This document shows positions 1-60,431 of a DNA stretch of 64,000 nucleotides, one piece after another. The notes beneath the pieces are model-generated. The model did no database searches. It saw only the letters and a program-made list of their open reading frames with translations, and was not told the origin of the DNA. A program made the position numbers and the translations under genes. Each line of letters starts with the position of its first letter. The stretch's first letter is position 1. The DNA is from Lachnospiraceae bacterium (lineage in GTDB: Bacteria; Bacillota; Clostridia; Lachnospirales; Lachnospiraceae): the NCBI GenBank assembly GCA_016284355.1, contig JAEEOQ010000080.1:1-64000 (forward strand). The letters run 5' to 3'.

Positions 1-781
1 AGTCCACCTTGCATTTTCCGTCCCAGATATTTACCGGGATCACATCGTCAAAGGTATATTCCGTATATGTATCTGAAACCTCGAAATTGTATACCTGGAT
101 CAGCTTTTGTTCAGGCATAACGACCCAATACTCGCGCACACCCGCTTTTTGGTACTTAGCTTTCTTTCTGAAGACATCGTGGTACCAGTTTGATTCGGAA
201 AGTACTTCTACTATAAGATCGGGAGCACCGTAAATACGAGCTTTGTTGATCTTATCTCTATCACAGACCACAAACACGTCAGGCTGTACCATGGTTTTAT
301 CGTCACAGTCAAGCTGAACATCTGTTGGAGCTATAAAAGCCATACAAGATCCGGTGTTTTTTGATATATAATCATTAAAAATCTGCGCCAATTCCAAGCC
401 GATTATCTGGTGAAAGGTAGTAGGCGCTGACATCAGGTAAAACACACCGTCTATCATCTCGGCTCTGATATCATCAGGCAAGGCAAGGTAATCGTCAAGA
501 GTTTTACCGGTACCTGAAAGATCTAAAGCACTTGTGCCGCTTACGTTTCCATAAGGAGTTGTGGTTTCATTTAGCATCAGAGATCGTCTCGCTGGATCTC
601 CTGTACTATATACTCCTGAAAAGGCTTTACTTAGAGCCTCGAGAGTACTACGCCTCGGAGTAGGAGTGATCCCGCTGAAAACTTTTTGTACTGTACTTAA
701 AGGAACACCGGACTTTTCGGATATATACTCAAGGGAGTATCCATTTTTCTTCTTTAATTCTACCATTTCATCAACTGTCAT
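1..781 (-). CDS. XRE-type HTH fused to Uma2-family (DUF820, PD-(D/E)XK-like) putative endonuclease, 3' truncated by window edge
   Basis: Manual reverse-strand translation from ATG at 781: MTVDEMVELKKKNGYSLEYISEKSGVPLSTVQKVFSG... (HTH) then ...GKTLDDYLALPDDIRAEMIDGVFYLMSAPTTFHQIIGLELAQIFNDYI...PDVFVVCDRDKI...GAPDLIVEVLSESNWYHDVFRKKAKYQKAGVREYWVV (Uma2 signature). Open to position 1. Confidence 0.85.
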   Translation of the reverse strand, partial: MTVDEMVELKKKNGYSLEYISEKSGVPLSTVQKVFSGITPTPRRSTLEALSKAFSGVYSTGDPARRSLMLNETTTPYGNVSGTSALDLSGTGKTLDDYLALPDDIRAEMIDGVFYLMSAPTTFHQIIGLELAQIFNDYISKNTGSCMAFIAPTDVQLDCDDKTMVQPDVFVVCDRDKINKARIYGAPDLIVEVLSESNWYHDVFRKKAKYQKAGVREYWVVMPEQKLIQVYNFEVSDTYTEYTFDDVIPVNIWDGKCKVD

Positions 782-980: not shown

Positions 981-2606
981 TCACATAATACTCATATACA
1001 TCCTGCTCTCGAATGGTCTAAGTAGTTTATCATCTCCCGCATCACAATAATTTGAAATTATAAGCTTGTCTTTGTCGGGAATTGATATATTTACAGGCAC
1101 GTCGTTTTCCTTTGTAAAATTGCAAACGACCGTAAGCGTATACTTTTCACCTTTTCGTTCATAAGCATAAACTCTCTCATCAGTAGGTAAAAGGTCAACA
1201 TATCTTCCGTCTTTAAAAACATCGTATTTCTTTCGCAGCTTTATCAAAGCTCTGTAATAGTTAAGCACAGAGTTTTGGTCTACATCTTCATCAAGAGCGT
1301 TTATATGCTTGTAATTATCATTAACTTTAAGCCATGGTTCTCCGGTTGTAAATCCGGAATTTTCGGTATCGTTCCACTGCATCGGAGTCCTTGCGTTATC
1401 TCTTCCTCTTGCATGGATAGATGTCATAACATCTTCGACATCATAGCCCTTTTCCAGTCTTTCAGCATACATATTCAGAGTCTCAATGTCTTTGCAATCT
1501 TTTATATCAAGATCTGCATTTGTCATACCCAGCTCTTCGCCCTGGTATATGTACGGAGTTCCTTGCATTCCGTAAAGAATTGTTGCAAGCATTTTTGCCG
1601 AAACTTCTCTAAACTCATCAGAGTCATTTCCCCACCTGGAAACTATCCTAGGCAGGTCATGATTGTTCCAAAACAGGCTGTTCCATCCCTTTCCATACAA
1701 CTCGGTCTGCCACTTATTCATAACCTTCTTCAATTCAGTTAGTTTAAGCGGCGCAAGGTCCCATTTTTCTTTTCCCGGAATCTGATCCAGCAAAATATGT
1801 TCAAACTGAAAAACCATGGAAAATTCGCTTCCGTCCGGATTGCTAAAAAGCTTAGCTGTATCCGTTGTAGCGCTCCAGGTTTCTCCCACTGTAACAAGAT
1901 TTTTTCCATGAAAAGTTTTAAGATTCATTTCTCTGAGATAGTCATGAAGGTTCGCACCATTTGCCGTAACCTTATTATCAGGTTCTTTAGCTACCTGATC
2001 AATGACATCGAACCTAAATCCGCATACACCTTTTTCTATCCAGAAATTCATTATTCTATACAACTCTTCACGTAGTTCAGGATTATCCCAGTTTAAGTCA
2101 GGCTGAGCTATCGCAAATTGATGAAAATAGAACCGGTCCACCTCGGGTACGTAGGTCCATGCAGGACCGCCAAACGTGGCTCTCATATCGTTAGGAAGCT
2201 GGCCATCCTTGTTATCTCTCCACACATAATAATCATGGAATTTATTATCTCTGCTTTTTTTAGCTTCTTTAAACCAAGGGTGTTCATCTGAGGAATGATT
2301 AAGGACCATATCTAAAATAATCCCTATGTTTCTTTCCTTTGCTTCCTTAATTAGCTTTTCCATGTCTGCCATATCTCCAAACATCGGATCTATATCCGTA
2401 TAGTCAGAGATATCATATCCGTTGTCCGCCTGAGGAGATTTAAAAATAGGGCAAAGCCAGATTGCATCAATACCAAGCTTTTCCAGATAATCAAGTTTAC
2501 TGATTATTCCTTTAATATCTCCAATACCGTCTCCATCGCTGTCACAAAAGCTCTTAGGATATATCTGATAAATAACGGCGTCTTTCCACCAGTCAGTCTT
2601 TCTCAT
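981..2606 (-). CDS. GH13 alpha-glucosidase (oligo-1,6-glucosidase/GH13_31-like)
   Basis: 541-aa ORF; WWKDAVIYQIYPKSFCDSDGDGIGDIKGII, GFRFDVID, GETW, NNHDLPR are classic GH13 motifs. Confidence 0.92.
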   Translation of the reverse strand: MRKTDWWKDAVIYQIYPKSFCDSDGDGIGDIKGIISKLDYLEKLGIDAIWLCPIFKSPQADNGYDISDYTDIDPMFGDMADMEKLIKEAKERNIGIILDMVLNHSSDEHPWFKEAKKSRDNKFHDYYVWRDNKDGQLPNDMRATFGGPAWTYVPEVDRFYFHQFAIAQPDLNWDNPELREELYRIMNFWIEKGVCGFRFDVIDQVAKEPDNKVTANGANLHDYLREMNLKTFHGKNLVTVGETWSATTDTAKLFSNPDGSEFSMVFQFEHILLDQIPGKEKWDLAPLKLTELKKVMNKWQTELYGKGWNSLFWNNHDLPRIVSRWGNDSDEFREVSAKMLATILYGMQGTPYIYQGEELGMTNADLDIKDCKDIETLNMYAERLEKGYDVEDVMTSIHARGRDNARTPMQWNDTENSGFTTGEPWLKVNDNYKHINALDEDVDQNSVLNYYRALIKLRKKYDVFKDGRYVDLLPTDERVYAYERKGEKYTLTVVCNFTKENDVPVNISIPDKDKLIISNYCDAGDDKLLRPFESRMYMSIM

Positions 2607-2790: not shown

Positions 2791-5700
2791 TTACTGGAAA
2801 TTCCCTTTAAGCCATTCCATATTCCATCCGGTCATTCGATAATGAAGGTTAAAGTCATCAGCTTCAACCCAATCACCATTTGAATATTGTGAAATAACAA
2901 CTCTTAAGTTATTCCAGTTGTTAATTGAACAATCATTATTAATTGCCGCACAAGGAATTACAAGTTCTATTCTTCCGGAATTTACCTCCCATTGCGGAGC
3001 TATAGCGTTGTTTACCATTCCTTCAGCATTCCACATTCCATTCGAATATATGTAACGAACATAATCATCGCTATCGTTGCTTCTCATGAGCATGTAATTC
3101 ATACTATGATCCATGGCATTACCGCTAATGCTTATATTGCTACCATTATTTCCTCCATCAGAGTATACTTGAACTGCGAACTTACTTGTACTCATATATT
3201 CAGGTAGTTTCCAATCGTCAAGATCAATCTTAACATAAATATTAGAGTTGTCATTTGCTACAGCAACATTTTTAATGTCGTATGAGTATGAGCCCAGCTG
3301 TAAATCATCATCTAGTCTGTCAGTGTAATAAGGAATGTTATCCCATTGAGCCCAATCACCTGCACATCCTCCACTTACACAAATGTTTTTATATGCTCCG
3401 GCATTTACCTGCGGAGAGTATACTCGCATATCAAACTTCCCGGCATATGCAAGTGATGTCATAAGGAATGCCGCTCCTGTTATTGGCTCACACATTGTGC
3501 TCAAATGAGGTTTTAAGGTAATGTTCGAGAAATTCTCACCCTGTGGCATATATCCTTTAGCTGTTCTATTTACATACCACTTAAGTCTGTTATATGCATT
3601 GATATAATTTGCTTCACTTCCTGACTGAATTTCGTACATGCCAATCCACATTGCCATTTGTGGCCAAGACGGTTCATCCTCAAGAGCTTCATTAGCCCCC
3701 GGATCCCATGGCATCCTGTGATAAAATCCATCATTTTCGTATCTAGCCACTCCATATGTGTCATGACCGATTCTTTCAGTTATCTTATCAATATGAGACT
3801 TTGCTCGTGAAGACTCTGCATCAACTACACCATATGCGATCATACAATCAGATGAAGAATCACATATAGTATTAGGCGTTCCATCCATGCTAACTGCTCG
3901 GTTAAAACGCTGTTCACTTACATTCCATTCACCAGGGTTAGTCTCTGTGTCATCTCTCATTATGGCAGTTCTGATAGTGGAAGCCCCGCCATTATACATA
4001 TCAGCTATATCCTGATATCCCATAGCCTGTGCCATATACTGAGCTGCATCAAGACCTGACACATATAATCCCTCAGTAAATGAGTTATACTCCGTCTGCT
4101 CTTCCCAAATACTACAATCAGGAAGTCCAAAACCATTTGAGCCAATATTCTGAAGAACCAGATCTGCACTTCTCTTATATGCCGGCCAGATGTTGTTTAA
4201 AAAGTTCACTTTTGCCTGTCCGGTTAATTTTTCATAATGTCTGTATGCCCCCACAAGGAACATGCCTATAGAATCATATTCCGGTTCAACAAACGATACA
4301 GGACCGTTATCCCAAATCCAATAACATGTCCAGAATGTACCAGGTTTCTTCCAACCACCTTCATCATTGGCTATCTGCCTGTCAGCAAGCCAATACCAGT
4401 ATTGTTCAGCTTCTTCAAGGTGACCGGTTGCATCCATACTCATAGCAGTAACTGCAGAATCTCTTGCCCAAACTTTATACGAGTAAGCAGATGGATTTGT
4501 TGTGGCAGGGAATGCCGCAAATTTTACTTTTCCATCGCTTCCGATACCCGGAACTATAGATTGCTTCATAAATACAGAAATACTCTTATATGCATCAACT
4601 ATCTCTTGATCGTTAACATCAAGTATTTCTCCTTCATTTAGCCAATCAGCATATTTTCCTGAAGTAAAGTTCTCCCAATAAGCCCCATTATGTTGTGTTA
4701 ATTCGGCAAGAACAAATGATAACTCACTGTTGTTTTTTCCTGCAGCAAGATAGAAATATACTCTCTTCATCTCACCAGGTGCTAATGTTACATTGACGCT
4801 ATACGCGGTACTAACATCAGATGCGCTGACATATCCATTATTATATAAAGCTCGGTCGCTATTAAATAAATGCCAAGGCGAACATTTACCGTTATAAATA
4901 TTTGATATTGTATCATCAGCAACCTGATAAGAGAAACCATATTCCTGCGAAAGGATTCCATGTGCAACTGAGGCTGCATCATTTCCCGGAAGATCAATTA
5001 AAACTGATTTAAATCCATTATTATATGATGCTGTCGTTTGACCTCCTAATTCGTTATTAACATGAAGCATATCAAGAATACTAAATGATCTTGAAGTATT
5101 TCCTTCATTCAAAAGGTCATATTCTACAATAACAAACTGTTTTCCCGGTACCATATTATACTTTTTAGTAAGTGATATTGGCATATTCTCATTACCGTAC
5201 TTTTCATATTCATTAATGAGAATTCCATTTTGATCAAAATAACCTGTCGAAGTATACTCGCTTGCGCTGGTATACTTAATTCCTGATGTTGTATCCTTAA
5301 GGAATGTTGAGTAATTTCTGATCAAATTAGTATTATAATTTCCATTTACACTACCATCATAATACCTAAGCTCGTATAACGAAGGTCCATCATTATTTGT
5401 AGGTGCAGCCTGATTAATAAAAGTATCTTTCCAGATTGCCACAAGATTGTTCCAGTTATTCATGTACAAACTTCTTGCAGACTCTTCATTTTCTTTTAAT
5501 GTAAGACTATCAAGATTGATTGCCCCATGATTTTCGTATCCATAATATACAACAATACTGTGAACTCCCTTTTTCAGTTCTACTCCAACTTCTGAATTTG
5601 CCCATGTATTCCAATCAGAGAGATTCGCAAAATAAGAATTCTTTGCTTTCTTTCCATCTACTATAATGCTCCTTGTTGCCTCATCTCCTATGGAATTAGC

Positions 5701-8076
5701 ATATCTAAATGACAGAGTGTATTTTCCATCTTCCGGAACTACAATAGTAAAGCCTACGCTGTCACCTACATTATCAAAACCGTCTACAAATCCTGCTCCG
5801 GTATAGCCGTAGTGATCTGTATTTGTAGATACACCGGATCTTACTCCGGCTTCTGCCTCATACTTGCCTGTAATATTTTCTATAGATCTCTTAATATAGA
5901 TCATATCCCAATACTCAAGTTTAGGCACAGTAAAAGCAACGTATTTGCGATTTCCATCATATCCAATGCTGAAATCAAGACTTGTTGTCAGGCAACTGTC
6001 ATAATCCGGAGAAGCAAGATAAACTCCGTCTATATTGAAATCATCATCAATATAATATCTTGTCTCAAGATTACTCTTAACGGTTGGCGTAGCGGTAGTG
6101 TTTCTCCACATGTTATCATTTTCTGATGAAAGGTTGATAAGGTGAAGAATGCTGTATTCATCGGTATGTCTACCAATATACCAAATAGTTCCACTCTCAC
6201 CATTTCCGCTTATATTTTCACCGTTGATTGAAAGATACTGTAATCCGGTATCTGCATATTTAACTTCCGGAGAAAAAAGAAGGTTCTCATAAGCAGTTAT
6301 AAAATCGTAATGATTTTTCATAGCCTCTTTTAACGAATTTCTAACTGATTTAGCCTTCATCGGATAATATTCATGTCCAAGCATTGTAACATCCTTGTCA
6401 GCACCAAGCTCAATATGCTGTGCTCCTGAAGCAGCAAATGCAGCATCTGCAAGTCTTATTGAGTTTTCATCAAATTCGCCAAGAGTCAGGCAATCAACAT
6501 TTATAGCTCCATAGCAGTCATTTTCATATGAAAGCTTAACGCTATGATTTCCTTGTGTTAGATATGCCGAGCAAGAGGCATCATAAGCCCAAGTATCCCA
6601 TGAGCTGTTAACACCAAATGAAACCTGATCAACTATTACATTGTCTACATACACTTTTCTAACAGCAGGAACTGCAGCATTAGCATAGGTAAAATCAAAT
6701 GAATACAAACCATCTTCCGGGGCTGTTATGTTAAAAGTAATGCTGTCTCCAACTGCTTCAAAACCATCAACAAAACCGCTTCCTGAAAAGCCATAGTGAT
6801 CCGTATTGGTAGATACATTTGATAAAGATGCATTTTCAGCTTCATATTTATCTCCACTAAGGTCTCTGTAGTTCATATATGCAGCTAAAACAAGCGCCTT
6901 GCCTCCATTATTATCTCTTACCTGCTCAATATAATTTTTTATGTCGTTATAGCTATCTGATAACCACCATATCTCGCTAAAATCAAAATCTGTATCTGCT
7001 TTTGTAGTAACATTATCCATTGCCCAGCCATTAGCCGTTCCGTCAACAATATTAAATGTTACAGTATTTTTGTTTGGATTGTTGGCAGTCAATTCTTTTT
7101 TTGTCTGATTTACCAAAGATGAAAAGGTATCTTCAAGGTAAACTCTTCGACCACGATAGTCGAAAACATTATTACGCTGGCCCATCTGATCCATTTGTAA
7201 GCCATCAAAGCCAAATGTATTAATGGCATCCTTATACTGATCAACCATTATATTCTGCCACTCAGTGTTAGCCGGATTAAAAAGCCACAGATATGTACTG
7301 TTATTACCAAAATCAACGTTAAGCTGCGATGAATGGTTCATATCAGTAAACAAACCGTAAGAAGGATCAATTCCGACATCGCCATATCCTTCTCTTGCGG
7401 CATATGACATAACATAAGCCATTGCATTGGCATTATTCTCATGGATTGTACTGATATAATCTAAAATTGTTTCTGTACTGATAGATCTGTTAAAAAGATC
7501 ATTCCAATGAGAAGCAACACTTCCATTTTCTCTTTTTATCAGTGTCTCATGTCTCCACATCCAATCATAAAGCTGATATGCATTGATGTGATATCTTTTT
7601 GATAATTCATCAATTGTTTCTTCTGCAACAGGATTATCAGTAAATTCTGCAACATATCCATATCTGGGATATGCCGAAAAATCAGATGAACAATCAATAG
7701 CAGTTGCTACACTCTCGTCACCGATATGTGCCTTAACCAGATAACCCATAAAATCTGTACTTGGCGTGGTCCAAGCCACATTAATACTTGTTTCTGTATT
7801 TCCGGGAACAGAAACACTGCTTTGAACCGTGTCGATCACTCTTTCCAAATGATATATATCGACATTTACGATTCCGCACCATGTTGAATTGTTTGGGTTA
7901 TTTACTTTAATAGTAAACTCAACCATATCACCCGGAGAATACATTGCTTTGTCAGCAAGAATATCCGTTACTACTGCATTGGTAACAGACGCCCTTACAT
8001 TAGGAGCAAATCCAAAAACCAATGAAATAATAAACAATACCGAAATGACGCTATTAAACATTTTTTTCATTTTCAC
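2791..8076 (-). CDS. Secreted multidomain dextran-active enzyme: GH66 (with inserted CBM35) - CBM35 - GH15 - glucodextranase-type C-terminal domain
   Basis: 1761-aa ORF with signal peptide; GH66-like YGYVAEF...INAYQLYDWMWRHE...FDGLQMDQMG; two CBM35-like YEAE..(S/G)VSTNTDHYG(F/Y)(S/T)G(S/A)GFVDGF modules, the first interrupting GH66; GH15-like VWARDSAVTAMSMDATGHLEEAEQYWYWLADRQ...DCSIWEE...PWDPGANEALEDEPSW. Confidence 0.85.
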   Translation of the reverse strand: MKMKKMFNSVISVLFIISLVFGFAPNVRASVTNAVVTDILADKAMYSPGDMVEFTIKVNNPNNSTWCGIVNVDIYHLERVIDTVQSSVSVPGNTETSINVAWTTPSTDFMGYLVKAHIGDESVATAIDCSSDFSAYPRYGYVAEFTDNPVAEETIDELSKRYHINAYQLYDWMWRHETLIKRENGSVASHWNDLFNRSISTETILDYISTIHENNANAMAYVMSYAAREGYGDVGIDPSYGLFTDMNHSSQLNVDFGNNSTYLWLFNPANTEWQNIMVDQYKDAINTFGFDGLQMDQMGQRNNVFDYRGRRVYLEDTFSSLVNQTKKELTANNPNKNTVTFNIVDGTANGWAMDNVTTKADTDFDFSEIWWLSDSYNDIKNYIEQVRDNNGGKALVLAAYMNYRDLSGDKYEAENASLSNVSTNTDHYGFSGSGFVDGFEAVGDSITFNITAPEDGLYSFDFTYANAAVPAVRKVYVDNVIVDQVSFGVNSSWDTWAYDASCSAYLTQGNHSVKLSYENDCYGAINVDCLTLGEFDENSIRLADAAFAASGAQHIELGADKDVTMLGHEYYPMKAKSVRNSLKEAMKNHYDFITAYENLLFSPEVKYADTGLQYLSINGENISGNGESGTIWYIGRHTDEYSILHLINLSSENDNMWRNTTATPTVKSNLETRYYIDDDFNIDGVYLASPDYDSCLTTSLDFSIGYDGNRKYVAFTVPKLEYWDMIYIKRSIENITGKYEAEAGVRSGVSTNTDHYGYTGAGFVDGFDNVGDSVGFTIVVPEDGKYTLSFRYANSIGDEATRSIIVDGKKAKNSYFANLSDWNTWANSEVGVELKKGVHSIVVYYGYENHGAINLDSLTLKENEESARSLYMNNWNNLVAIWKDTFINQAAPTNNDGPSLYELRYYDGSVNGNYNTNLIRNYSTFLKDTTSGIKYTSASEYTSTGYFDQNGILINEYEKYGNENMPISLTKKYNMVPGKQFVIVEYDLLNEGNTSRSFSILDMLHVNNELGGQTTASYNNGFKSVLIDLPGNDAASVAHGILSQEYGFSYQVADDTISNIYNGKCSPWHLFNSDRALYNNGYVSASDVSTAYSVNVTLAPGEMKRVYFYLAAGKNNSELSFVLAELTQHNGAYWENFTSGKYADWLNEGEILDVNDQEIVDAYKSISVFMKQSIVPGIGSDGKVKFAAFPATTNPSAYSYKVWARDSAVTAMSMDATGHLEEAEQYWYWLADRQIANDEGGWKKPGTFWTCYWIWDNGPVSFVEPEYDSIGMFLVGAYRHYEKLTGQAKVNFLNNIWPAYKRSADLVLQNIGSNGFGLPDCSIWEEQTEYNSFTEGLYVSGLDAAQYMAQAMGYQDIADMYNGGASTIRTAIMRDDTETNPGEWNVSEQRFNRAVSMDGTPNTICDSSSDCMIAYGVVDAESSRAKSHIDKITERIGHDTYGVARYENDGFYHRMPWDPGANEALEDEPSWPQMAMWIGMYEIQSGSEANYINAYNRLKWYVNRTAKGYMPQGENFSNITLKPHLSTMCEPITGAAFLMTSLAYAGKFDMRVYSPQVNAGAYKNICVSGGCAGDWAQWDNIPYYTDRLDDDLQLGSYSYDIKNVAVANDNSNIYVKIDLDDWKLPEYMSTSKFAVQVYSDGGNNGSNISISGNAMDHSMNYMLMRSNDSDDYVRYIYSNGMWNAEGMVNNAIAPQWEVNSGRIELVIPCAAINNDCSINNWNNLRVVISQYSNGDWVEADDFNLHYRMTGWNMEWLKGNFQ

Positions 8077-8419
8077 TTTACCTCCTGTTTTTGTTGAATT
8101 TGTTCAATAGTGCAAATAATTAGCAAAATTTTTCCACCTCTGTCGAAGTTGTAAACCCATACATAAAAGCGTATTAAATCTCGCTAATTACAGTAAATTA
8201 TGATATACTGATTTTATATGAAAGTAAATTTATAAAGTCGACATTTTTTGTATAATAACTACCACTTTTGTGTCAGACTGCTTATCAAGTTATTTTTCAT
8301 TATATGTCGCTATTATACAAATGATGACGTTCTAATCCATTGTCTAGAAACGGCTGGCGGGCCTATTATATAGATGCTTCTATAGAGCAACTATATAATT
8401 AAATCAAGGAGAAGATGAA

Positions 8420-9715
8420 ATGAAAAAAAGTATTTTAAAAGCAATTTCACTACTTATGGTAGCAATACTTATTATGTCCTGCTTATCAGGATGTTCTAAA
8501 TCAGCTGAAAAAGTGGCCGAAGACGAAAAAGCGCCTTTAGGTTCCACCGGTTCAGAGTCCTCTTCTTCAGTTAAAGATGAAGAGATCACACTTACCTTTT
8601 GGCATACTTACGGGGACGCTGAAGAAGCACAGTTAAAAAATGAAGTTCTTCCTATGTGGGAAAAATCGCATCCAAACATTAAGATTGATGCAGTTCGTCA
8701 GGATGGAGGTCAGTTCCATCAGATGATCGTAACTTCATTTGGTACCGGTATGAGTCCTGATGTTGCGAGAGTGGATATCGCAAACATTGCTGCCTACGCT
8801 AAACAGGGTGGCCTTGTTGCATTAAGCGATTACTCGGATTTTTCAGATCTTGCAAAAGACTATATGGACGCACCTCTTTCAACCAACCTTTATCAGGGAA
8901 AATATTACGGTCTTCCTCTTGATACCAACTGCAAGGCTGCTGTTATCAATACGAATATTATGGGAGAGCTTGGAATAAACGGTGCGCCGACAACTATGGA
9001 AGAATTCATAGCAGCCGCTAAAGATCGCGGTTCATACTCACTTAACGTTTCAGGTGTCGGTGACTGGGATATGTATCCTTATTTCTGGCTGTTTGGTGGC
9101 ACTCTTACAGATGACGGTTTTACAAAGGCTACCGGATATCTCGACAGCGAGGCCAGTGTTAATGCCATGAAGAAGATCATTGAGCTCCATGATGAAAAAA
9201 TATTTACCATTAGAGATATTGACGGTTCTGTGGATGCCTGGGATGGGATCAACAGTGAATATGCAATGTTCTTTGAAGGTCCTTGGTATTTTGGCTCATA
9301 TGATGATTGTGCAGCAAAAGGTATCATCGCTTCTACTATTCCAACATTTAATGGAAACAGCGCATCTGTAGTCGGTGGTGAAGATATTGCCGTATTTGCT
9401 ACCGGTAAACACCCTGAGGTATCTTATGAATTTGCAAAGTTCATGACTTCCAAGGACGTTCAGCTTGCTATGTTAAAATCAGGTCAGCTTCCTATCCTCA
9501 AGTCACTTGTAAATGACGAAGCCATTACAAGTAATCCTGTATGGTCTGTATACATGAAACAGCTTGAGTCTGCAAAAGCAAGAATTCCATCTCCAAACAA
9601 CACAGCCATTCAGGAAATTTGGAGCGAAACTGTAACAAGCATTTTTATTGACGGAGTCGACCCACAGTCAGCCCTCAGCAGTGCTGCTGCTCGTATAGAC
9701 GAAGAGTTACGTTAA
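8420..9715 (+). CDS. Sugar ABC transporter substrate-binding lipoprotein
   Basis: 431 aa; lipobox MSCLSGC; ITLTFWHTYGDAEEAQLKNEVLPMWEKSHPNIKI typical of family 1 SBPs; RBS AAGGAGAAG upstream. Confidence 0.93.
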   Translation: MKKSILKAISLLMVAILIMSCLSGCSKSAEKVAEDEKAPLGSTGSESSSSVKDEEITLTFWHTYGDAEEAQLKNEVLPMWEKSHPNIKIDAVRQDGGQFHQMIVTSFGTGMSPDVARVDIANIAAYAKQGGLVALSDYSDFSDLAKDYMDAPLSTNLYQGKYYGLPLDTNCKAAVINTNIMGELGINGAPTTMEEFIAAAKDRGSYSLNVSGVGDWDMYPYFWLFGGTLTDDGFTKATGYLDSEASVNAMKKIIELHDEKIFTIRDIDGSVDAWDGINSEYAMFFEGPWYFGSYDDCAAKGIIASTIPTFNGNSASVVGGEDIAVFATGKHPEVSYEFAKFMTSKDVQLAMLKSGQLPILKSLVNDEAITSNPVWSVYMKQLESAKARIPSPNNTAIQEIWSETVTSIFIDGVDPQSALSSAAARIDEELR

Positions 9716-9787: not shown

Positions 9788-10717
9788 TTGCATAAATCTG
9801 CAATTAACAGTAAAAAACTTAAAAAGGGATTACGAGGATGGCTTACAGCATGTCCTTTTATTTTACCCGGTCTTATCCTGGTAGGCCTGTTTATTCTTTA
9901 TCCAATGGTATTTACGATCAGGATCTCTCTTTCCGAATACCAGATAGTTCAAGGCAAGATCACATTCATTGGACTTCAGAATTTCAAAAATGTTCTTGCC
10001 GGCGGATCACGTTTTTGGTATGCATACAGGAACAATATTCTTTATGCCATCGTAACTGTTCCATTTATTATCCTTGGGGGCATGTTATTCTCCTACCTTA
10101 TCAACAATCTGAAACACGGTGGAAGCATTTTCAGAGTAGGTTTTTACCTTCCCGTTATTACATCATGGGTAATAGTAAGCCTTGTATTTCAGTACATGTT
10201 TAACAACTCTGACAGAGGTCTTATCAATTACCTTCTTGTAGATGTTTTTCATATCTTAGACGACTATGTTCCTTGGCTTCTTCGCGAATGGTCAGGAAAT
10301 GCCGCAATCTGGCTTATGGGCATCTGGAAAAACATGGGATGGGCTATGCTGATCTACCTTGCCGCTCTTCAGGGAATTCCTGCAGATTATTATGAGGCAG
10401 CTAAGCTTGACGGAGCCGGACTTTGGAAATCATTTGCTTATATTACCATCCCTTGTTTAAGGCCTACAACTTTCTACGTAATGGTAAATATGATAATCGG
10501 TTCTTTTAATGTATTTATCCAGGTTTTAATGTTAACAGGCGGAAATCCAAACGGAAAAACTTCAGCCCTTCAATATTTGCTTTATGATAAAGCCTTTAAT
10601 AAATTTGAATTCGGCGAAGCGTCAGCTGTCGGTCTAATATCCGCTGTTTCCATAGTGATCCTCACTTTGGTTCTTAATAAAACATTTAAGCTTGATTCAG
10701 TAGAAAAGGAGGGCTAA
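9788..10717 (+). CDS. Sugar ABC transporter permease (MalF/LacF type)
   Basis: 309 aa; EAAKLDGAGLWKSFAYITIPCLRPT EAA loop. Confidence 0.93.
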   Translation: MHKSAINSKKLKKGLRGWLTACPFILPGLILVGLFILYPMVFTIRISLSEYQIVQGKITFIGLQNFKNVLAGGSRFWYAYRNNILYAIVTVPFIILGGMLFSYLINNLKHGGSIFRVGFYLPVITSWVIVSLVFQYMFNNSDRGLINYLLVDVFHILDDYVPWLLREWSGNAAIWLMGIWKNMGWAMLIYLAALQGIPADYYEAAKLDGAGLWKSFAYITIPCLRPTTFYVMVNMIIGSFNVFIQVLMLTGGNPNGKTSALQYLLYDKAFNKFEFGEASAVGLISAVSIVILTLVLNKTFKLDSVEKEG

Positions 10718-10721
10718 TTTA

Positions 10722-11594
10722 ATGAAGCAAGGTAAAAAAGCTACTTTTTATATTGGTCAGGCTCTGCTTTGGATTTTCCTTCTTGGAGCATTATTTGTAT
10801 TTTCAATTCCTTTTTTGTTTATGATTTCAAACTCATTTGAGGAATTTAGTTATGTTTTACCCTATCCACCAAGGATCTTTCCATCAAAGTTTAACTTTGA
10901 TGCATACAAGTATGTGCTGGAGCTTGATCTGTTTGGTACAGCTGTAAGGAATAGCATTATAAACACAATAGTAACAGTTGTTATTGCTGTGTTCATCTCT
11001 ACGCTTTCCGCTTATGGCTTTGCCAAAATAGAGTTTCCCGGCAGAGACAAAATATTTGCAATTTATTTATTTACTCTTATGATGCCGGGGTTTCTTAATA
11101 TAATCCCGCAATTCCTAGTTTTAAAGGGAATTAAGATATTCGGTGGAGAAACCGGTCTTGTTGGCACAAGAGCCGGCCTGATTCTGATCTATGTAGCCAC
11201 AAACGTATGCGGCCACACATTTTTCCTTAGGAACTTTTTCAGATCCCTTCCGGAATCGCTATCAGAATCAGTATTACTCGATGGAGGCAGCAGATCAACT
11301 ATCTTTTTTAAGATAATGCTTCCACTTTCAAAACCTGCGATAGGAACCATGTCAATCTTTGCCATTCAGGGATTTTGGGAAGAATACTTTACAGCAAAGG
11401 TTCTTGTAGGTGCAAATGAAAGTATGATCACTTTTCCACTTTTACTACAAAGATTAAACGGACAGCATGCCACAAGATGGGAATGGGTATTTGCCGCCTC
11501 TCTTCTTGCGTTAATACCAATAGTCATTTTATTTATCATTTTCCAGAAAAAAATGGTTGTTGGCGGTTTGACAAGCGGTGCCGTGAAAGGATAA
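10722..11594 (+). CDS. Sugar ABC transporter permease (MalG type)
   Basis: 290 aa; ESVLLDGGSRSTIFFKIMLPLSKPAIGTMSI; terminal VVGGLTSGAVKG. Confidence 0.93.
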   Translation: MKQGKKATFYIGQALLWIFLLGALFVFSIPFLFMISNSFEEFSYVLPYPPRIFPSKFNFDAYKYVLELDLFGTAVRNSIINTIVTVVIAVFISTLSAYGFAKIEFPGRDKIFAIYLFTLMMPGFLNIIPQFLVLKGIKIFGGETGLVGTRAGLILIYVATNVCGHTFFLRNFFRSLPESLSESVLLDGGSRSTIFFKIMLPLSKPAIGTMSIFAIQGFWEEYFTAKVLVGANESMITFPLLLQRLNGQHATRWEWVFAASLLALIPIVILFIIFQKKMVVGGLTSGAVKG

Positions 11595-11596
11595 CT

Positions 11597-13198
11597 ATGA
11601 AATTTACCAAAGCTCAATTTAAAGAGCATGATCAAATAGAATTTACCATCGACTCAGATTTTAATCAGCCGAAGCTGCAGATATCGCACCTTGAAGATCA
11701 GCTTTTTCCGACAGTTACTGTAAATGGTCGTTTTTATTCTATTTCCTCATTACCTGTCGGCGGTTACGGAATAATAATAAAAGACGACACACACTTTGAA
11801 GAAGGTGCCTTCGATGTTGTTTCATCAGAAAAAGACATCGTAAGATACGGTTTCTTATCAGATTTTTCTGAAAGTGATGATGACACGGCAGATGTAGATT
11901 GGATGAAAGATCTGCATATAAATGCAATTCAGTTTTATGACTGGATGTACAAACACGATGACCTGATATGTACTCAGGATTCTTATACAGATCCTTTGGG
12001 TCGAAACACAAGTCTTTCGTCCATAAAAGCTAAAATAGACAGGTGTAAGCAGCTTGGTATTCGCCCTTTTGCTTATGGTGCCGTGTATGCTGCCACTAAA
12101 AGCACATTTGAAAAGCACCCGGATTGGGCTATGTATACCTTAGATAAGAAGCCCATGACATTCGCCGGTTGGTTATATTATATGAATATTTCAGACAAAA
12201 GCGGCTGGAGCGATCATATAGTAAATGAATTTAAAAAAACCATAGGCTTTGGTTTTTCCGGCATTCACATGGATACTTACGGGTTTCCAAAACTTGTAAG
12301 AGACTTTAACGGAAATGCTGTTGATCTTTCAGAACATTTCCCCACACTCATAGATCATTCAGCTGCGGCCGTCTCAAGTATAGATCCTTCAGGAGGTGTC
12401 ATTTTTAATGCAGTAAACAACTGGCCTGTTGAGGCAGTTTCCGGATCGGATCAGGACTCGGTTTACATTGAAGTTTGGCCGCCGAATGATACCTACTACG
12501 ATCTTTACACTCTCATAAGAGAGGCTAAGATCTATTCGAAAAAAAATGTCATCCTTGCTGCTTACTTAAAAGCTTTCAAAGAAAATGACGTAAAATCAGC
12601 TGAGCGATCCTTTAAACTTGCCTTTGCTTCTATTTGTGCTTCAGGCGGAACACAGCTTGTGTTAGGAGAAAACAAATGCGTACTCTCCGACAGTTATTAT
12701 GCCGATCATTCAAGTATTTCTGACGATTTTGCTACAGAAGTTCAAAAATACTGCGATTATCTCGTAAGGTACAACGAACTCCTTTATAACGACACCGGTT
12801 CTGACATCAGTAGAACTGCTGCTGATGGCATAAATGAAGATATAGTGTTTATCTCAGACAACGTGTCCTTTTCATCAAACGGCTCTTCAAATACCGTTTG
12901 GACAATCATAAGAAAATCGTCATCAATGATTACCATTAACATGATAAACCTTGTCGGTATAAACAACAGATGGAACGAGCCCAAAGAAGAGCCTACACAT
13001 ACAGGAGAGTTTATGATAAGGTTACGACTCGATCGAAACGTAAAAGGATTTTTCTTTGCAACGCCGGACGAGGATACTTTGTCTGCAAAGTGCTTAAATT
13101 ACAGTATCAACGATAATACTGACCAGGGTAGGATTTACGAAATAACAGTGCCTTCTGTACACTATTTTTCTACAATATGGGCCAGGACGGAGGATTAA
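11597..13198 (+). CDS. Cytoplasmic GH66-family protein (dextranase/CITase-like), no signal peptide, no CBM35
   Basis: 533 aa from ATG 11597, 2 nt after the upstream stop (the listed ORF start 11477 overlaps the permease). VRYGFLSDFSESD...LHINAIQFYDWMYKHDDLI...GFSGIHMDTYG... matches the GH66 module of the 2791-8076 gene. Confidence 0.85.
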   Translation: MKFTKAQFKEHDQIEFTIDSDFNQPKLQISHLEDQLFPTVTVNGRFYSISSLPVGGYGIIIKDDTHFEEGAFDVVSSEKDIVRYGFLSDFSESDDDTADVDWMKDLHINAIQFYDWMYKHDDLICTQDSYTDPLGRNTSLSSIKAKIDRCKQLGIRPFAYGAVYAATKSTFEKHPDWAMYTLDKKPMTFAGWLYYMNISDKSGWSDHIVNEFKKTIGFGFSGIHMDTYGFPKLVRDFNGNAVDLSEHFPTLIDHSAAAVSSIDPSGGVIFNAVNNWPVEAVSGSDQDSVYIEVWPPNDTYYDLYTLIREAKIYSKKNVILAAYLKAFKENDVKSAERSFKLAFASICASGGTQLVLGENKCVLSDSYYADHSSISDDFATEVQKYCDYLVRYNELLYNDTGSDISRTAADGINEDIVFISDNVSFSSNGSSNTVWTIIRKSSSMITINMINLVGINNRWNEPKEEPTHTGEFMIRLRLDRNVKGFFFATPDEDTLSAKCLNYSINDNTDQGRIYEITVPSVHYFSTIWARTED

Positions 13199-13201
13199 CC
13201 G

Positions 13202-14101
13202 ATGCTCTTTTATTATGATGCAGATGTATTACCAAAAGTAAGAATGATGGGACAGATACGCTATACAACCCCTTGGATACACTTTCCTCGCTCGATCGGC
13301 GAGTATGTTTTATACGCTATAACAGAAGGAAATATGTACTTAAGAGAAAACAACGAAGAATACTCTCTTAAGGCCGGTGATGTTTTCATATTAGAGCCGG
13401 GACTTTTTCACGAAGGATATCAAAAAGCAACCTGCTCGTATTATTACGCTCACTTTACCCAGAGCAGCATTTCACCGGCTATCGATGCTAATAAAGCTCT
13501 TGAAGACTTCAATGAAAACAGAAAAAAGAGCCTTATAAGCTATAATCTCGATGAACAGGACCCAACGGACTCGCTGACCTGTGTGCCTAAGTTGTTCCAT
13601 CTTCGTAACAGTACCATTAGAACAAGGCTTTCATCCGCTGTCGAATACTATAACTCAAGAGAAGAAAACTACAAGCGAAAAACCGCTACCGAGCTGCATC
13701 TGTTTCTTCTTGATATGGCACATGAATATTTGCTTTCTGAGAACAATCTAAGCAAAAGTAAGATAAATAAATCAGAAGCTATAGTTGAGAAAATACTGGC
13801 CTACTTAAACTCAAATTATTCGCAGCATGTAACAAGTCAGGATATAGCAGAGATCTTTGAAATAAACTTTGATTATATCAACAGAGTGTTTGCCGCAAAG
13901 ACAGGCTCTCCTATTTTTGCTTATATAAACTTTTTGCGGATATCCAATGCCAAGCAACTTATAGCCACCACTGAATTACCCTTTTCCGAAATAGCTTATC
14001 TTGTAGGCATTGAGGATAGATACTACTTTTCTAAGTTATTTAAGAAAATAACGGGGCAAACACCGTCTGACTACTATAAAGAATCAAGATATAAAATTTG
14101 A
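13202..14101 (+). CDS. AraC-family transcriptional regulator (cupin + HTH_18)
   Basis: 299 aa; C-terminal NAKQLIATTELPFSEIAYLVGIEDRYYFSKLFKKITGQTPSDYYK. Confidence 0.92.
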   Translation: MLFYYDADVLPKVRMMGQIRYTTPWIHFPRSIGEYVLYAITEGNMYLRENNEEYSLKAGDVFILEPGLFHEGYQKATCSYYYAHFTQSSISPAIDANKALEDFNENRKKSLISYNLDEQDPTDSLTCVPKLFHLRNSTIRTRLSSAVEYYNSREENYKRKTATELHLFLLDMAHEYLLSENNLSKSKINKSEAIVEKILAYLNSNYSQHVTSQDIAEIFEINFDYINRVFAAKTGSPIFAYINFLRISNAKQLIATTELPFSEIAYLVGIEDRYYFSKLFKKITGQTPSDYYKESRYKI

Positions 14102-41940: not shown

Positions 41941-43722
41941 TTATTTTACTGCTACTTTTGCGCTTTTTCCGATACGCTCCCATTTACCGTTTGCGTTCTT
42001 TGCGTAAGCATATACAACGTACTCGTAAGCTCCGCTTACTTTCTTGTTTGTAAACTTAGCAGATGAAACTGTACCAAGTTTAACGAGAGCACTGCCCTCT
42101 TTACCGCCAAATACAACATATTTCTTTGCTCCGTTTACTTCGCTCCATGTAAGCTTGTGAGAACCTGCTGTAGCCTTTGCGCTTACCTTAAATGTCTTTT
42201 CAAGGCTCTGAGCCGCGATCCATGTAAGGAAATTTGCATAGCCCTTTCCGATCTCAGAAGGTCTTACTGTCTTAGCAGTAAGGATCTCTTCCTTTGTCTC
42301 TTTTACAAGTTTGCTCTCATCGTAATCAGGAAGCTGATATGGAAGCCATCCGTAATTGTCTGTTACGTCTTCGCCGTCATATGTAGCCTTTGTAACAACG
42401 ATATCTTTAAACTTAACAACGCCGTCTTCTACGCACCAGTCGTATGACTCGCCGTCTCTCTTTACATACCAGTCTCTCTTTTCGTTGCTTGAGATAAAGT
42501 TCTTTCCGTCGTAATCATCGCCAAGACCATCGAAATTGTGCTGTGGGTATACCCAGCTAAAATGGCTCATATATGGCTGAAGTCCGTCCATAAGTCCGTC
42601 ATAATCACACTCTGAGAAAAGTGCTGCATATACAGGAGCCTTTGACTCTTTAACGCCTAATGCCTTGTATGCATTCATAAGTCTGCTGTACATATGGAAT
42701 GTTGCGTTTGGATTACATGTGTTATCCTCGATGCAATGGATAAGATAGATTGCTGTTGTCTTTTTACCCTTTGCTGCAGGAGCTGCGATCTTTGCGCAAT
42801 CCTCATCTGTAAGCTCACCTGCCGCACAGATAGGGAATGCTGCTGCAAAGAAGTTAGGATAATTCTTAAGCATGTTTACTGTACCGGCACCGCCCATTGA
42901 GCATCCGCCTACGTAGATCCTGTTCTCGTCAATATCATACTCGCGAAGAGTCTTCTGGATAGCTTCCATGATCCATGCAGGATTGTGGCCCCATGAACCT
43001 GCTGCGGCTCTGTCTCCGTCATACTGAGGAGCAAGGATAAATGCGTTATCAAGGATAGCCTGTGCATCATCCTTAGCCCAGTTGGTTACCATATTGCCAA
43101 CGATCTGTGCTCTGTTGTTGTTTCCTGACTCACCTGCTCCGTGGATCCAAACAAAAAGAGGATTCTTTCCTGTAAGTTTCTTAGGAACAAAAAGTCTGTA
43201 TGTAAGGTTTTCTGTTTCAAGATCAAGGAATTCATCTACTATTTCATTTGTAGTACCCTTAAATGTAAATGTCGACTTCTTATCAAATGCAGTTCCGCCT
43301 GTTGTTACCTTGCTGACAAGCTCAACCTTTGCGGTTTTTTCTGCCATCTCTGTAAGAAGGAACTGACTGTTGTTTACTGTCTTAAGGTTAAGTGTTACTT
43401 TACTTCCGCTTACGCTGACGCTTTCAACTTCTCTTTCAACGGTTCCCTCAACGTTTGCATATACGCCATAATCAAAATAGGAATAATCGTTTGTAAACTT
43501 AAAATCCTTTGTGCTGACACTCTTAGCATCAACTTCGCTCTTAAGGTCAACTACAACGCTTGTTATAGCCTCGCCCCAATCGTAACATGAAGTACCCATC
43601 TTGAAGGTTCCTTTTACCTTCTTGCTTCCGGCTGCAAGTGCGCTGCCGGAAAACGGACAGCTGCCAAGCACAAGTGCTAAAGCAATCAGTCCCGCAAAAA
43701 CTCTTTTTACTGCTTTTTTCAT
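41941..43722 (-). CDS. Secreted EstA-like alpha/beta-hydrolase esterase with N-terminal Ig-like and C-terminal Fn3-like domains
   Basis: 593 aa; signal peptide; CYDWGEAITSVVVDL N-domain; NPLFVWIHGAGESGNNNRAQI...IYVGGCSMGGAGTVNML; HCIEDNTCNPNATFH; MSHFSWVY. Confidence 0.82.
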   Translation of the reverse strand: MKKAVKRVFAGLIALALVLGSCPFSGSALAAGSKKVKGTFKMGTSCYDWGEAITSVVVDLKSEVDAKSVSTKDFKFTNDYSYFDYGVYANVEGTVEREVESVSVSGSKVTLNLKTVNNSQFLLTEMAEKTAKVELVSKVTTGGTAFDKKSTFTFKGTTNEIVDEFLDLETENLTYRLFVPKKLTGKNPLFVWIHGAGESGNNNRAQIVGNMVTNWAKDDAQAILDNAFILAPQYDGDRAAAGSWGHNPAWIMEAIQKTLREYDIDENRIYVGGCSMGGAGTVNMLKNYPNFFAAAFPICAAGELTDEDCAKIAAPAAKGKKTTAIYLIHCIEDNTCNPNATFHMYSRLMNAYKALGVKESKAPVYAALFSECDYDGLMDGLQPYMSHFSWVYPQHNFDGLGDDYDGKNFISSNEKRDWYVKRDGESYDWCVEDGVVKFKDIVVTKATYDGEDVTDNYGWLPYQLPDYDESKLVKETKEEILTAKTVRPSEIGKGYANFLTWIAAQSLEKTFKVSAKATAGSHKLTWSEVNGAKKYVVFGGKEGSALVKLGTVSSAKFTNKKVSGAYEYVVYAYAKNANGKWERIGKSAKVAVK

Positions 43723-43958: not shown

Positions 43959-46900
43959 TTATTTAACAGTAACGTTAACTACTGCCGTTTTACCGTCAAG
44001 AGCCACAACATAAATCTGACATGTTCCTTCGCTTACGGCTGTTACTTTGCCGTTTGCAGAAACTGTTGCAACGCTGCTGTCAGTACTGTAGTAACGAAGC
44101 GCCTTGTTGCTCTTTGAGTTAAGCGCCTTCTTTGCATCATCTTCAACCGTATGGGTTGCCTTGATAGTAAAGGTCTTGCCTTCTTTAAGAGAAACAGCCT
44201 TCTTTGCAAGAGTGATCTTGCTTACATTTGTGTAGCCTTTGGTCTTTGTGGTACAACCGACAGTCTTTTCGCTCTTTTCAAGTCTGTTACCCTTTGCATC
44301 AAATGCTGTTACAACATACTTGCGAAGACCTGCCTTAACATTCTTTTCGGTAAAGAATGTAGCTGAAGTTGTACCGAGTTTCTTATATGAGCCTCCCTGA
44401 TCGGCGCCGTAAACAACGTATTTAACAGCTCCTTCGACTCTTCCCCATGAAAGGTTGATAGTGCTCTTTCCTGCGGTAAGCTTAACTACGAAAGGAACTT
44501 CTTCCTTGGTAGCTACAGCACCCTGTGCAGTTTCTTCTTCGGAAAGTTCAAATTCCTGAGTATTTCCGTCATTGCCGCTATTTGCTGTGTTTCCGCCGGC
44601 TACAGGATTGTAATAGTAGCTGCTGCCTCCGTTTGAAGGATTTGAAGGATTAGCAGGCTGTGCCTGATTATCATTCTTCTTATCCTCACGTGTCTGGTCT
44701 GCGAGCCATGCAACAAAGTTTGCATATCCCTTGCCAATCTCAGATGGGCGAACGGATTTAGCATAAAGGAAATTGTCCTCTTTTTCTTCTATAACAAGTT
44801 TAGACTTGTCGTAATTTGGAATGATATATGAAAGCCAAGCAATATAATTTGTAACATCCTGTCCTTCATATGAAGCCTTTAAGATCTTCATATCATTAAA
44901 TACTACCATTCCGTTTTCTACGAAGTACTCGTAATCTCCACCCTCTTTGGTGACTTCACGATCCACATCACTTGAAATGAAGTTAGCTCCGTCATAGTCT
45001 TCTCCGAGACCATCAAAGTTATTTTCTACATATATCCAGCTCCAGTGGCTGAGGAATGACTGGAATCCATCAGGACATCCATCAAAGTCAACCTGTGAGA
45101 AAAGAGCTGTATAAGCAGGGATATCAGCCTCATCAATACCAAGAGCCTTATATGCATCTACAAGGTTTTTGTATGTGTGGAATGTAGCGTTCGGATTACA
45201 TGTGTTATCCTCGATACAATGGATAAGGTAAATAGCTGTTGTCTTCTTTCCATATGCTGCAGGAGCTGCAATCTTTGCACAATCTTCAGGAGTAAGCTCT
45301 CCTGCAGGGCAGATTGGGAATGCTGCTGCAAAGAACTTAGGATATGCCTTAAGCATATTTACTGTTCCAAGGCCACCCATGGAGCAGCCACCAACATAGA
45401 TTCTATCAATATCGATATCATAATTGTTGATGGTTTCCTGAATAGCCTCCATAACATATTTTGGATCATGTCCCCAGCTGTTTATATTATTAGCCTGAGG
45501 AGCAAGTACAAATGCATTATCAAGAACAGCCTGATTCTCTGCGTTAGCAAAGTTAACTACAGGGTTTCCTGCTATCTGTGCTCTGTTATCTGTACCTGAT
45601 TCTCCTGCTCCGTGAAGCCATACAAGAAGAGGATTCTTTCCTGTAAGTTTCTTTGGAACATAGAGTCTGTAAGTGATATGATCTGTTTTCTTCTCAAGGA
45701 AAGCATCAATCTCAGGGTTCTTAGCACCTGTAACTGCAAATGTGCAATCAGCAAGGCTAATGCCACCGTTTAATGTAACCTCGCCTGCAAGAGTTAACTT
45801 AGCAGAATCAAGTGAAACTTCTGTATACTTAACCTCATCACTCATAGCACTTGTTACAAGGTTAAGAACAACTTTAGAACCGTTTACTTCTACGCTTTCA
45901 ACGCTTCTTACTACGTGACCAACCTTAACCTTCTGACCATCGTTATAATCGGTGTACTTGTAATCGCCTTCGTATACGAAATCTTCTGTGTCAAGGCTCT
46001 CAGCATCAACAGGAACCTTAAGATCGATGACAACGCTTGTTATAGCCTCGCCCCAATCAAAGTTTGTTGCGTTAAGCTCAAAGTCTCTTACATCTGTAAG
46101 GCTCTGATCTGCGAGCCATGTAAAGAAGTTTGCATAGCCCTTACCGATTTCAGATGGACGAATGGATTTAGCTAATAAATCAGCTTCGCTTGTTTTATAG
46201 GTCTTTCTTGAATCTTCTATAAACCAAAGTTCCCACCACTGGCCTGTGAATTCTTCTCCGTCTACATAAGTGATGGTAGAAATATCTTTTAATACTACGT
46301 TTCCATCTTTTACGCAATACTGATAATCGCCACCCTCAGATGTCCAGTCAAGATCCACATCACTTGAGATGAAGTTTACTCCGTCGTAGTCATCGCCAAG
46401 AGCGTCAAAGTTGTTTTCAGCATATACCCAGCTCCAGTGGCTAAGGTATGACTGAATTCCTTCAAGGCATCCGTCAAAGTCTACCATAGAGAAGAGAGCT
46501 GTATAAGCAGGGATATCTTCTTCCTTAACACCAAGTGCCTTGTATGCTTCTACAAGATTGCTGTATGTATGGAAGGTAGCATTTGGATTACATGTGTTAT
46601 CCTCGATACAATGGATAAGATAAATTGCTGTAGTCTTCTTTCCTGCTGCTGCAGGTGCTGCGATCTTAGCGCAGTCTTCTGCTGTAAGCTCTCCTGCAGG
46701 GCAGATTGGGAATGCTGCTGCAAAGAATGTTGGATATGCTTTAAGCATATTTACTGTTCCAAGACCTCCCATTGAGCATCCGCCTACATAAATTCTATCT
46801 GTATCGATATTGTAATCTGCGATAGTTTTTTCAATAGCTTCCATTACCCATTCAGGGTTATGTCCGAAGCCACCCCAGCCTCTATTTGAATCATACTGAG

Positions 46901-49253: not shown

Positions 49254-49642
49254 TTCCTTTCTCCTTTTTATATAGTTTTTTGAGCTAACCCCTACGAGGT
49301 CTCTCTGCCCCAAATTATTGCACGGAGAAACAATTCTTACCATGTTCAAAATTTGTCCTAAAGTTACACTTCATTATTTTTGTACAATTTTTAATGTGTG
49401 CCCGTAACTGTTAAATAAGATGCAATCATCCTAGAAATAGTCAGAATATACCACCTGTAAGCAGCTTACAGGTTTTACGGTACATCGTTTTACGAAAAAC
49501 ATAATAAACATGTTCATAATTTTCTATTTATGATTTTTATTTACACAAAAAATAAAGCCACCCTCAAATCAAATTTTGAGAATGGCTTTAACAGCATACC
49601 TGTAACTATATATAGTTTAGTAAAATGTTTGGTTTTCCTGAC

Positions 49643-60345: not shown

Positions 60346-60431
60346 ATTAAAATTCACTTTCCTTTCCTTTGTTGGCCATCTGGCCTTCAAGGAATATTGT
60401 AGTCCCGGCTTATCCCTTTGTCAAGAAAAAA

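Follow-up and report, generated by a model that had tools for sequence, protein, structure and literature searches.

The transglycosylation of starch products into cyclic alpha-1,6-glucans is carried out in different bacteria by separate or by fused enzymes. The CITase of Thermoanaerobacter thermocopriae (TtCITase, WP_028992696) consists of a GH66 part followed by a GH15-like region at residues 1184-1559 (PMC12446779). For its C-terminal part, formation of isomaltooligosaccharides from maltooligosaccharides has been reported (PMC12446779, PMC13084667), and the protein has been described as a single enzyme with CITase and 6-alpha-glucosyltransferase domains (PMC13084667). The GH15 product of Tepidibacillus decaturensis (46GT) reportedly turns maltodextrin into isomaltooligosaccharides or alpha-1,6-glucan (PMC13084667). 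Dextran dextrinase is a retaining GH15 transglucosylase, and its cluster is defined by two dyads, Phe-Tyr and Gly-Glu (PMC12446779). It makes alpha-1,6-glucan from starch dextrins.

We analysed a window of 64,000 nucleotides from a Lachnospiraceae bacterium (contig JAEEOQ010000080.1). It contains an intact ORF of 1761 amino acids with a GTG start (2791-8076, minus strand), which encodes a secreted fusion of a signal peptide, a GH66 CITase, a CBM35, a GH15 of the dextran dextrinase type and a C-terminal domain. All parts of the fusion are on the minus strand. The hydrophobic signal peptide covers about aa 1-29. The GH66 half follows (aa 30-732; 5881-7989), with the Pfam Glyco_hydro_66 profile at aa 42-727 (E 5e-149). 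Its barrel is interrupted at about aa 409-533 by an inserted module, CBM35-1 (6478-6852), where the CBM_6 profile matches aa 419-532. The CBM_35 profile matches two stretches of the protein, the better of which (aa 738-861, E 4e-22) falls in CBM35-2 (aa 738-862; 5491-5865). The GH15 half comprises an N2-type N-terminal beta-sandwich domain (about aa 863-1165; 4582-5490) and an (alpha/alpha)6 catalytic domain of the dextran dextrinase cluster (aa 1166-1550; 3427-4581), in which the Glyco_hydro_15 profile matches aa 1290-1462 (E 9e-8). The protein ends in a beta domain (aa 1551-1761; 2794-3426) that is conserved in fused and split relatives. A preliminary description, made from the sequence alone, had placed the CBM35 in the GH66 barrel at the correct coordinates, and Pfam and the signal peptide agree with its second CBM35-like module and GH15-like domain in one secreted ORF. 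Its assignment of a glucodextranase-type C-terminal domain did not hold: Pfam found no match above the cut-off at aa 1551-1761 in the window protein or in the relatives, so that a Glucodextran_C at this end is not supported and the type of the domain stays unassigned.

This architecture is already published, and the window protein adds to a known type rather than being a new dextran degrader. The preliminary description had known of no characterised enzyme with this order, and had held that such an enzyme would speak against its reading; TtCITase has the order (PMC12446779, PMC13084667). By published coordinates, the GH15 region of TtCITase (1184-1559) corresponds to that of the window fusion (about 1166-1550), although TtCITase, unlike the window protein, comes from a thermophile. 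The same order was also found in nine other complete loci, where the proteins are 1769-1838 aa long, and in further ones in the host's order. A chance ORF and an artefact of assembly are thus both rejected. A relative from Thermoanaerobacter wiegelii is only 45% identical over the part that it retains. This copy (L021, 6664-10092) lacks the GH66 catalytic part and has one in-frame TAG, which shows that decay does happen among these proteins and lends some substance to the idea that the window fusion is itself degenerate or inactive. We find that idea scarcely credible, since the window ORF is intact, keeps every catalytic residue and has intact close relatives.

Judged by sequence and modelled structure, the GH66 half is of the CITase type. 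In a phmmer search of the PDB, CITase 3WNK scored 787 bits over aa 36-728, against 339 bits for the best dextranase. An AlphaFold2 model of this half (pLDDT 83) matched CITases with a TM-score of 0.95 and 51% identity, against 0.75 and 29% for the best dextranase. Asp296 and Glu368, whose columns are invariant across 14 homologues, align with Asp309 and Glu381, the catalytic residues of PsCITase (PMC5408701). Together with the CBM35 insert, these results support the CITase identity that the preliminary description had proposed. The CITases of Bacillus circulans T-3040 and Paenibacillus sp. 598K likewise have a GH66 with a CBM35-1 insert, followed by CBM35-2, and are 51% identical to the GH66 half of the window protein. 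Unlike the window protein, they have no GH15, and their CBM35-1 carries a tryptophan (W515/W514) where the window protein has serine. Strain 598K has its 6-alpha-glucosyltransferase as an enzyme of its own (GH31 structure 5X7O).

The canonical-site tryptophan of CBM35-1 is kept, with Trp493 corresponding to PsCITase W507. The lateral-site W515 of PsCITase is replaced by Ser501, and its Tyr470 by Leu457; the W515-equivalent position also varies among the relatives in our alignment. With the mutations W507A and W515A, PsCITase made about 25% and 65% less cyclodextran in total, respectively, of unchanged ring size, while Y470A kept activity (PMC5408701). Since mutation of W515 cuts cyclodextran yield, cyclisation by the fusion could be weaker, and the loss of this one tryptophan contact appears to be a somewhat unusual point of the window protein. 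It would also fit a GH66 half that is chiefly an endodextranase, cyclises little and yields linear isomaltooligosaccharides. However, both sequence and structure are much nearer to CITases than to dextranases, and the insert and Trp493 are retained. We consider a mainly endodextranase function very unlikely and prefer a CITase that closes rings.

The GH15 half, searched alone against the PDB at E up to 5, had a single significant sequence match, the dextran dextrinase of Gluconobacter oxydans (9JU0, E 1.4e-66). The glucodextranase of Arthrobacter globiformis (1UG9/1ULV) gave no match even at this threshold. In Foldseek, the AlphaFold2 model of this half (pLDDT 84) again had 9JU0 as its top match (E 2e-54), and glucodextranase 1UG9 scored much lower (E 5e-23). 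The acid/base Glu1325 and the nucleophile Glu1514 lie in GH15 regions S3 and S5. Catalytic glutamates alone cannot separate retaining from inverting GH15 enzymes, for which the dyads are a correlate (PMC12446779). Both cluster dyads are present in the window protein, as Phe1451-Tyr1452 in S4 and Gly1513-Glu1514 in S5. Among the 23 GH15 sequences compared, Gly-Glu occurs in all and Phe-Tyr in all except one (L022). By sequence, dyads and model, the GH15 half is of the dextran dextrinase or 4(6)-alpha-glucosyltransferase type and not a glucodextranase. The preliminary description was right that the protein joins GH66 and GH15 activities, but its exo-acting glucodextranase is contradicted by the match to 9JU0, the structure search and the dyads.

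The alternative is a GH15 half that acts as an inverting exo-glucodextranase, releasing glucose from alpha-1,6-glucan and forming a dextran-degrading pair with the GH66 half. The A. globiformis enzyme does share the GH15 fold, with an N-terminal beta-sandwich and a catalytic barrel, comes next among the GH15 structures in the Foldseek ranking, and both catalytic glutamates occur in either type. Yet it is an inverting hydrolase that sequence search did not find, and it has Pro-Glu (AgGD Pro627) where the window protein has Gly1513 before Glu1514. The Phe-Tyr dyad is likewise present here, and the closest characterised relatives of the GH15 half are transglucosylases. We judge a glucodextranase to be highly improbable. 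A GH15 half of the dextran dextrinase type leads us to predict a starch-to-cyclodextran machine and not a dextran-degrading one.

Dextran dextrinase 9JU0 resembles the window protein in its CBM35-like N1, its N2 and GH15 A domains and its Phe-Tyr and Gly-Glu dyads, with 37% identity over the GH15 catalytic domain. It differs in having no GH66, in a C-terminal beta-helix in place of the conserved C-terminal domain of the window protein, and in making long dextran. CBM35-2 sits directly N-terminal to N2, the position of N1, a domain that about half of the dextran dextrinase-type members have. One locus (L020, 7564-10692) encodes a stand-alone CBM35-N2-GH15-C protein. In a CBM35 tree its N1 falls among the CITase CBM35-2 domains with 93/92 support; support was too weak to place the Gluconobacter N1, which has a very long branch. 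The L020 grouping agrees with the published idea that N1 originated from a GH66 protein, although it is suggestive only. The equivalence of N1 and CBM35-2 bears on how GH15 turned into a retaining enzyme. Other relatives point to the donor. A Paenibacillaceae MAG (L019, 6058-15737) encodes two tandem proteins that combine CBM25 modules with a dextran dextrinase-type GH15 and have no GH66. These GH15 relatives carry two to four of the starch-binding CBM25 modules, in keeping with an alpha-1,4-glucan donor.

Genes next to the fusion encode a matching import and breakdown route. An operon divergent from the fusion gene (plus strand) encodes a solute-binding lipoprotein (8420-9715), two ABC sugar permeases assigned by Pfam (9788-10717 and 10722-11594), a GH66 that lacks both a signal peptide and a CBM35 insert (11597-13198; the ORF is listed from 11477, with 11597 the likely start) and, also from Pfam, an AraC-family regulator with a cupin-like sensor and HTH (13202-14101). 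In the PDB, the lipoprotein matches best to 9XF5 (E 1e-91), a structure of the cyclic isomaltooligosaccharide-binding protein TdCIBP in complex with cyclic isomaltooctaose, and residue mapping showed that all nine of the conserved CI/IG-contacting residues of TdCIBP are identical. Downstream of the fusion gene lies a GH13 gene (981-2606, minus strand), whose product resembles glucan-1,6-alpha-glucosidases and oligo-1,6-glucosidases and has no visible signal peptide. Its best PDB match is 4AIE (E 2e-193), with glucan 1,6-alpha-glucosidases closest. A perfect 14-nt inverted repeat with a 4-nt loop (2747-2778), directly downstream of the fusion gene, is probably a terminator between it and the GH13 gene. 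Several imperfect inverted repeats occur at 8077-8419, in the divergent promoter region that separates the fusion gene from the transport operon; the AraC regulator likely has its operator here.

The leaderless GH66 is a probable cytoplasmic dextranase that opens cyclodextrans. A second GH66 suited to ring opening argues further against an endodextranase as the GH66 half of the fusion, although TdCIBP-type binding proteins also accept linear isomaltooligosaccharides. The importer bears on the GH15 half as well: glucose released from dextran outside the cell would compete with the adjoining cyclodextran importer, which disfavours a glucodextranase.

In the pathway that we propose, with a ring-forming GH66 half and a transglucosylating GH15 half, the GH15 half would act outside the cell. 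Starch dextrins would donate glucosyl residues from their non-reducing ends, and transfer of these to O6 positions would build an isomaltosyl chain. Guided by its CBM35 insert, the CITase half would cut this alpha-1,6 chain and close it into cycloisomaltooligosaccharides. The CIBP-type lipoprotein would bind the rings and the ABC permeases import them. Inside the cell, the leaderless GH66 would open the rings, and the GH13 1,6-glucosidase would finish the breakdown to glucose. From the sequences and models, we hold it highly probable that one secreted protein performs two consecutive transglycosylations, followed by ring import and intracellular breakdown. The domain architecture, the catalytic residues and dyads, the ligand residues of the binding protein and the conserved gene neighbourhood are what the data show; the reactions themselves, the sizes of the product rings and any channelling between the halves are what we only infer.

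The cluster of T. decaturensis is organized similarly. It includes a CITase, 46GT, a TdCIBP-type binding protein, permeases and an intracellular GH66, and its GH15 domain is 56% identical to that of the window. Unlike in the window, CITase and GH15 are encoded by adjacent genes, and the GH15 gene has its own start and signal peptide and no CBM35 (N1) domain. A fusion in T. decaturensis, as a 1899-aa open frame, was ruled out by translation: the two genes are separated by TAA-TAG, a ribosome-binding site and a new start with signal peptide.

A scan of genome contigs found dextran dextrinase-type GH15 proteins encoded at 23 loci. At nine of these (L005-L010, L012, L013 and L015) the fused order is complete, and another (L011) is cut by a contig end. 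In the Clostridial relatives L005-L008, the same transport and GH66 gene set adjoins the fusion. The halves are adjacent genes at five loci, in Tepidibacillus, two Paenibacillus and two Cohnella. In a GH15 tree, the window protein groups with the fused Clostridial proteins (10 rows, 99/99), and the split Bacilli form a separate clade together with L019 (99/97). The latter includes one fused member, Cohnella fermenti, in which the halves are joined by a different linker, an Asp-Pro repeat. Its position within the split clade suggests that fusion or fission probably occurred more than once.

We found a strong match to the fusion in the host only, among 299 genomes of its family. In the host's order, 7 of 392 genomes had one, with a frame of fusion length in each except one cut short. 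The closest relatives are 78-81% identical to the window's GH15 and 75-83% to its permeases. RpoB identity between the host and the genomes with these relatives is about 65%, compared with 77-82% within the host's family. The contig's glucose-6-phosphate isomerase gene is 76% identical to that of a host-family member (G009). Against the genomes with the closest fusions, its identity reaches 33% at most, or 38% over a short segment. This check draws on one relative, G009, since two other family members gave weak matches. The resemblance makes a misbinned contig unlikely and horizontal transfer the better explanation. The GC of the locus is somewhat below that of its surroundings. This apparent horizontal transfer between distant Clostridia and the recurrent fusion or fission are two further somewhat unusual points.

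Several other features were seen elsewhere in the window. A 1796-aa protein (43959-49349, minus strand) has three esterase/alpha-beta-hydrolase repeats, with matches to Peptidase_S9 and to EstA_Ig_like in three stretches apiece, and ends in a Big_2 domain. It adjoins a 593-aa protein (41941-43722) with a single copy of the esterase repeat. An open-ended ORF at 2-781 (minus strand) shows, by eye, a helix-turn-helix followed by a Uma2/DUF820-like nuclease domain. An HSP90-type ATPase (58369-60390, minus strand) has its profile match split into two stretches.

A bolder picture, which we regard as doubtful, is that the fusion is a channelling starch-to-cyclodextran converter, that a CBM35-1 without the lateral tryptophan yields ring sizes unlike those of CI7/CI8 producers, and that the cluster moves horizontally and makes shared starch private and importable for some uncultured Clostridia. 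The preferred pathway of transglycosylation, import and breakdown already changes the biology of the locus, which would be one of eating starch via cyclic alpha-1,6-glucan and not of degrading dextran. The pathway, so far known from Bacilli and Thermoanaerobacter, would then reach into uncultured Clostridia as well, and there is evidence that it has spread laterally. Fused and split proteins may also offer a ready comparison of whether covalent linkage of the two transferases raises cyclodextran yield from starch.
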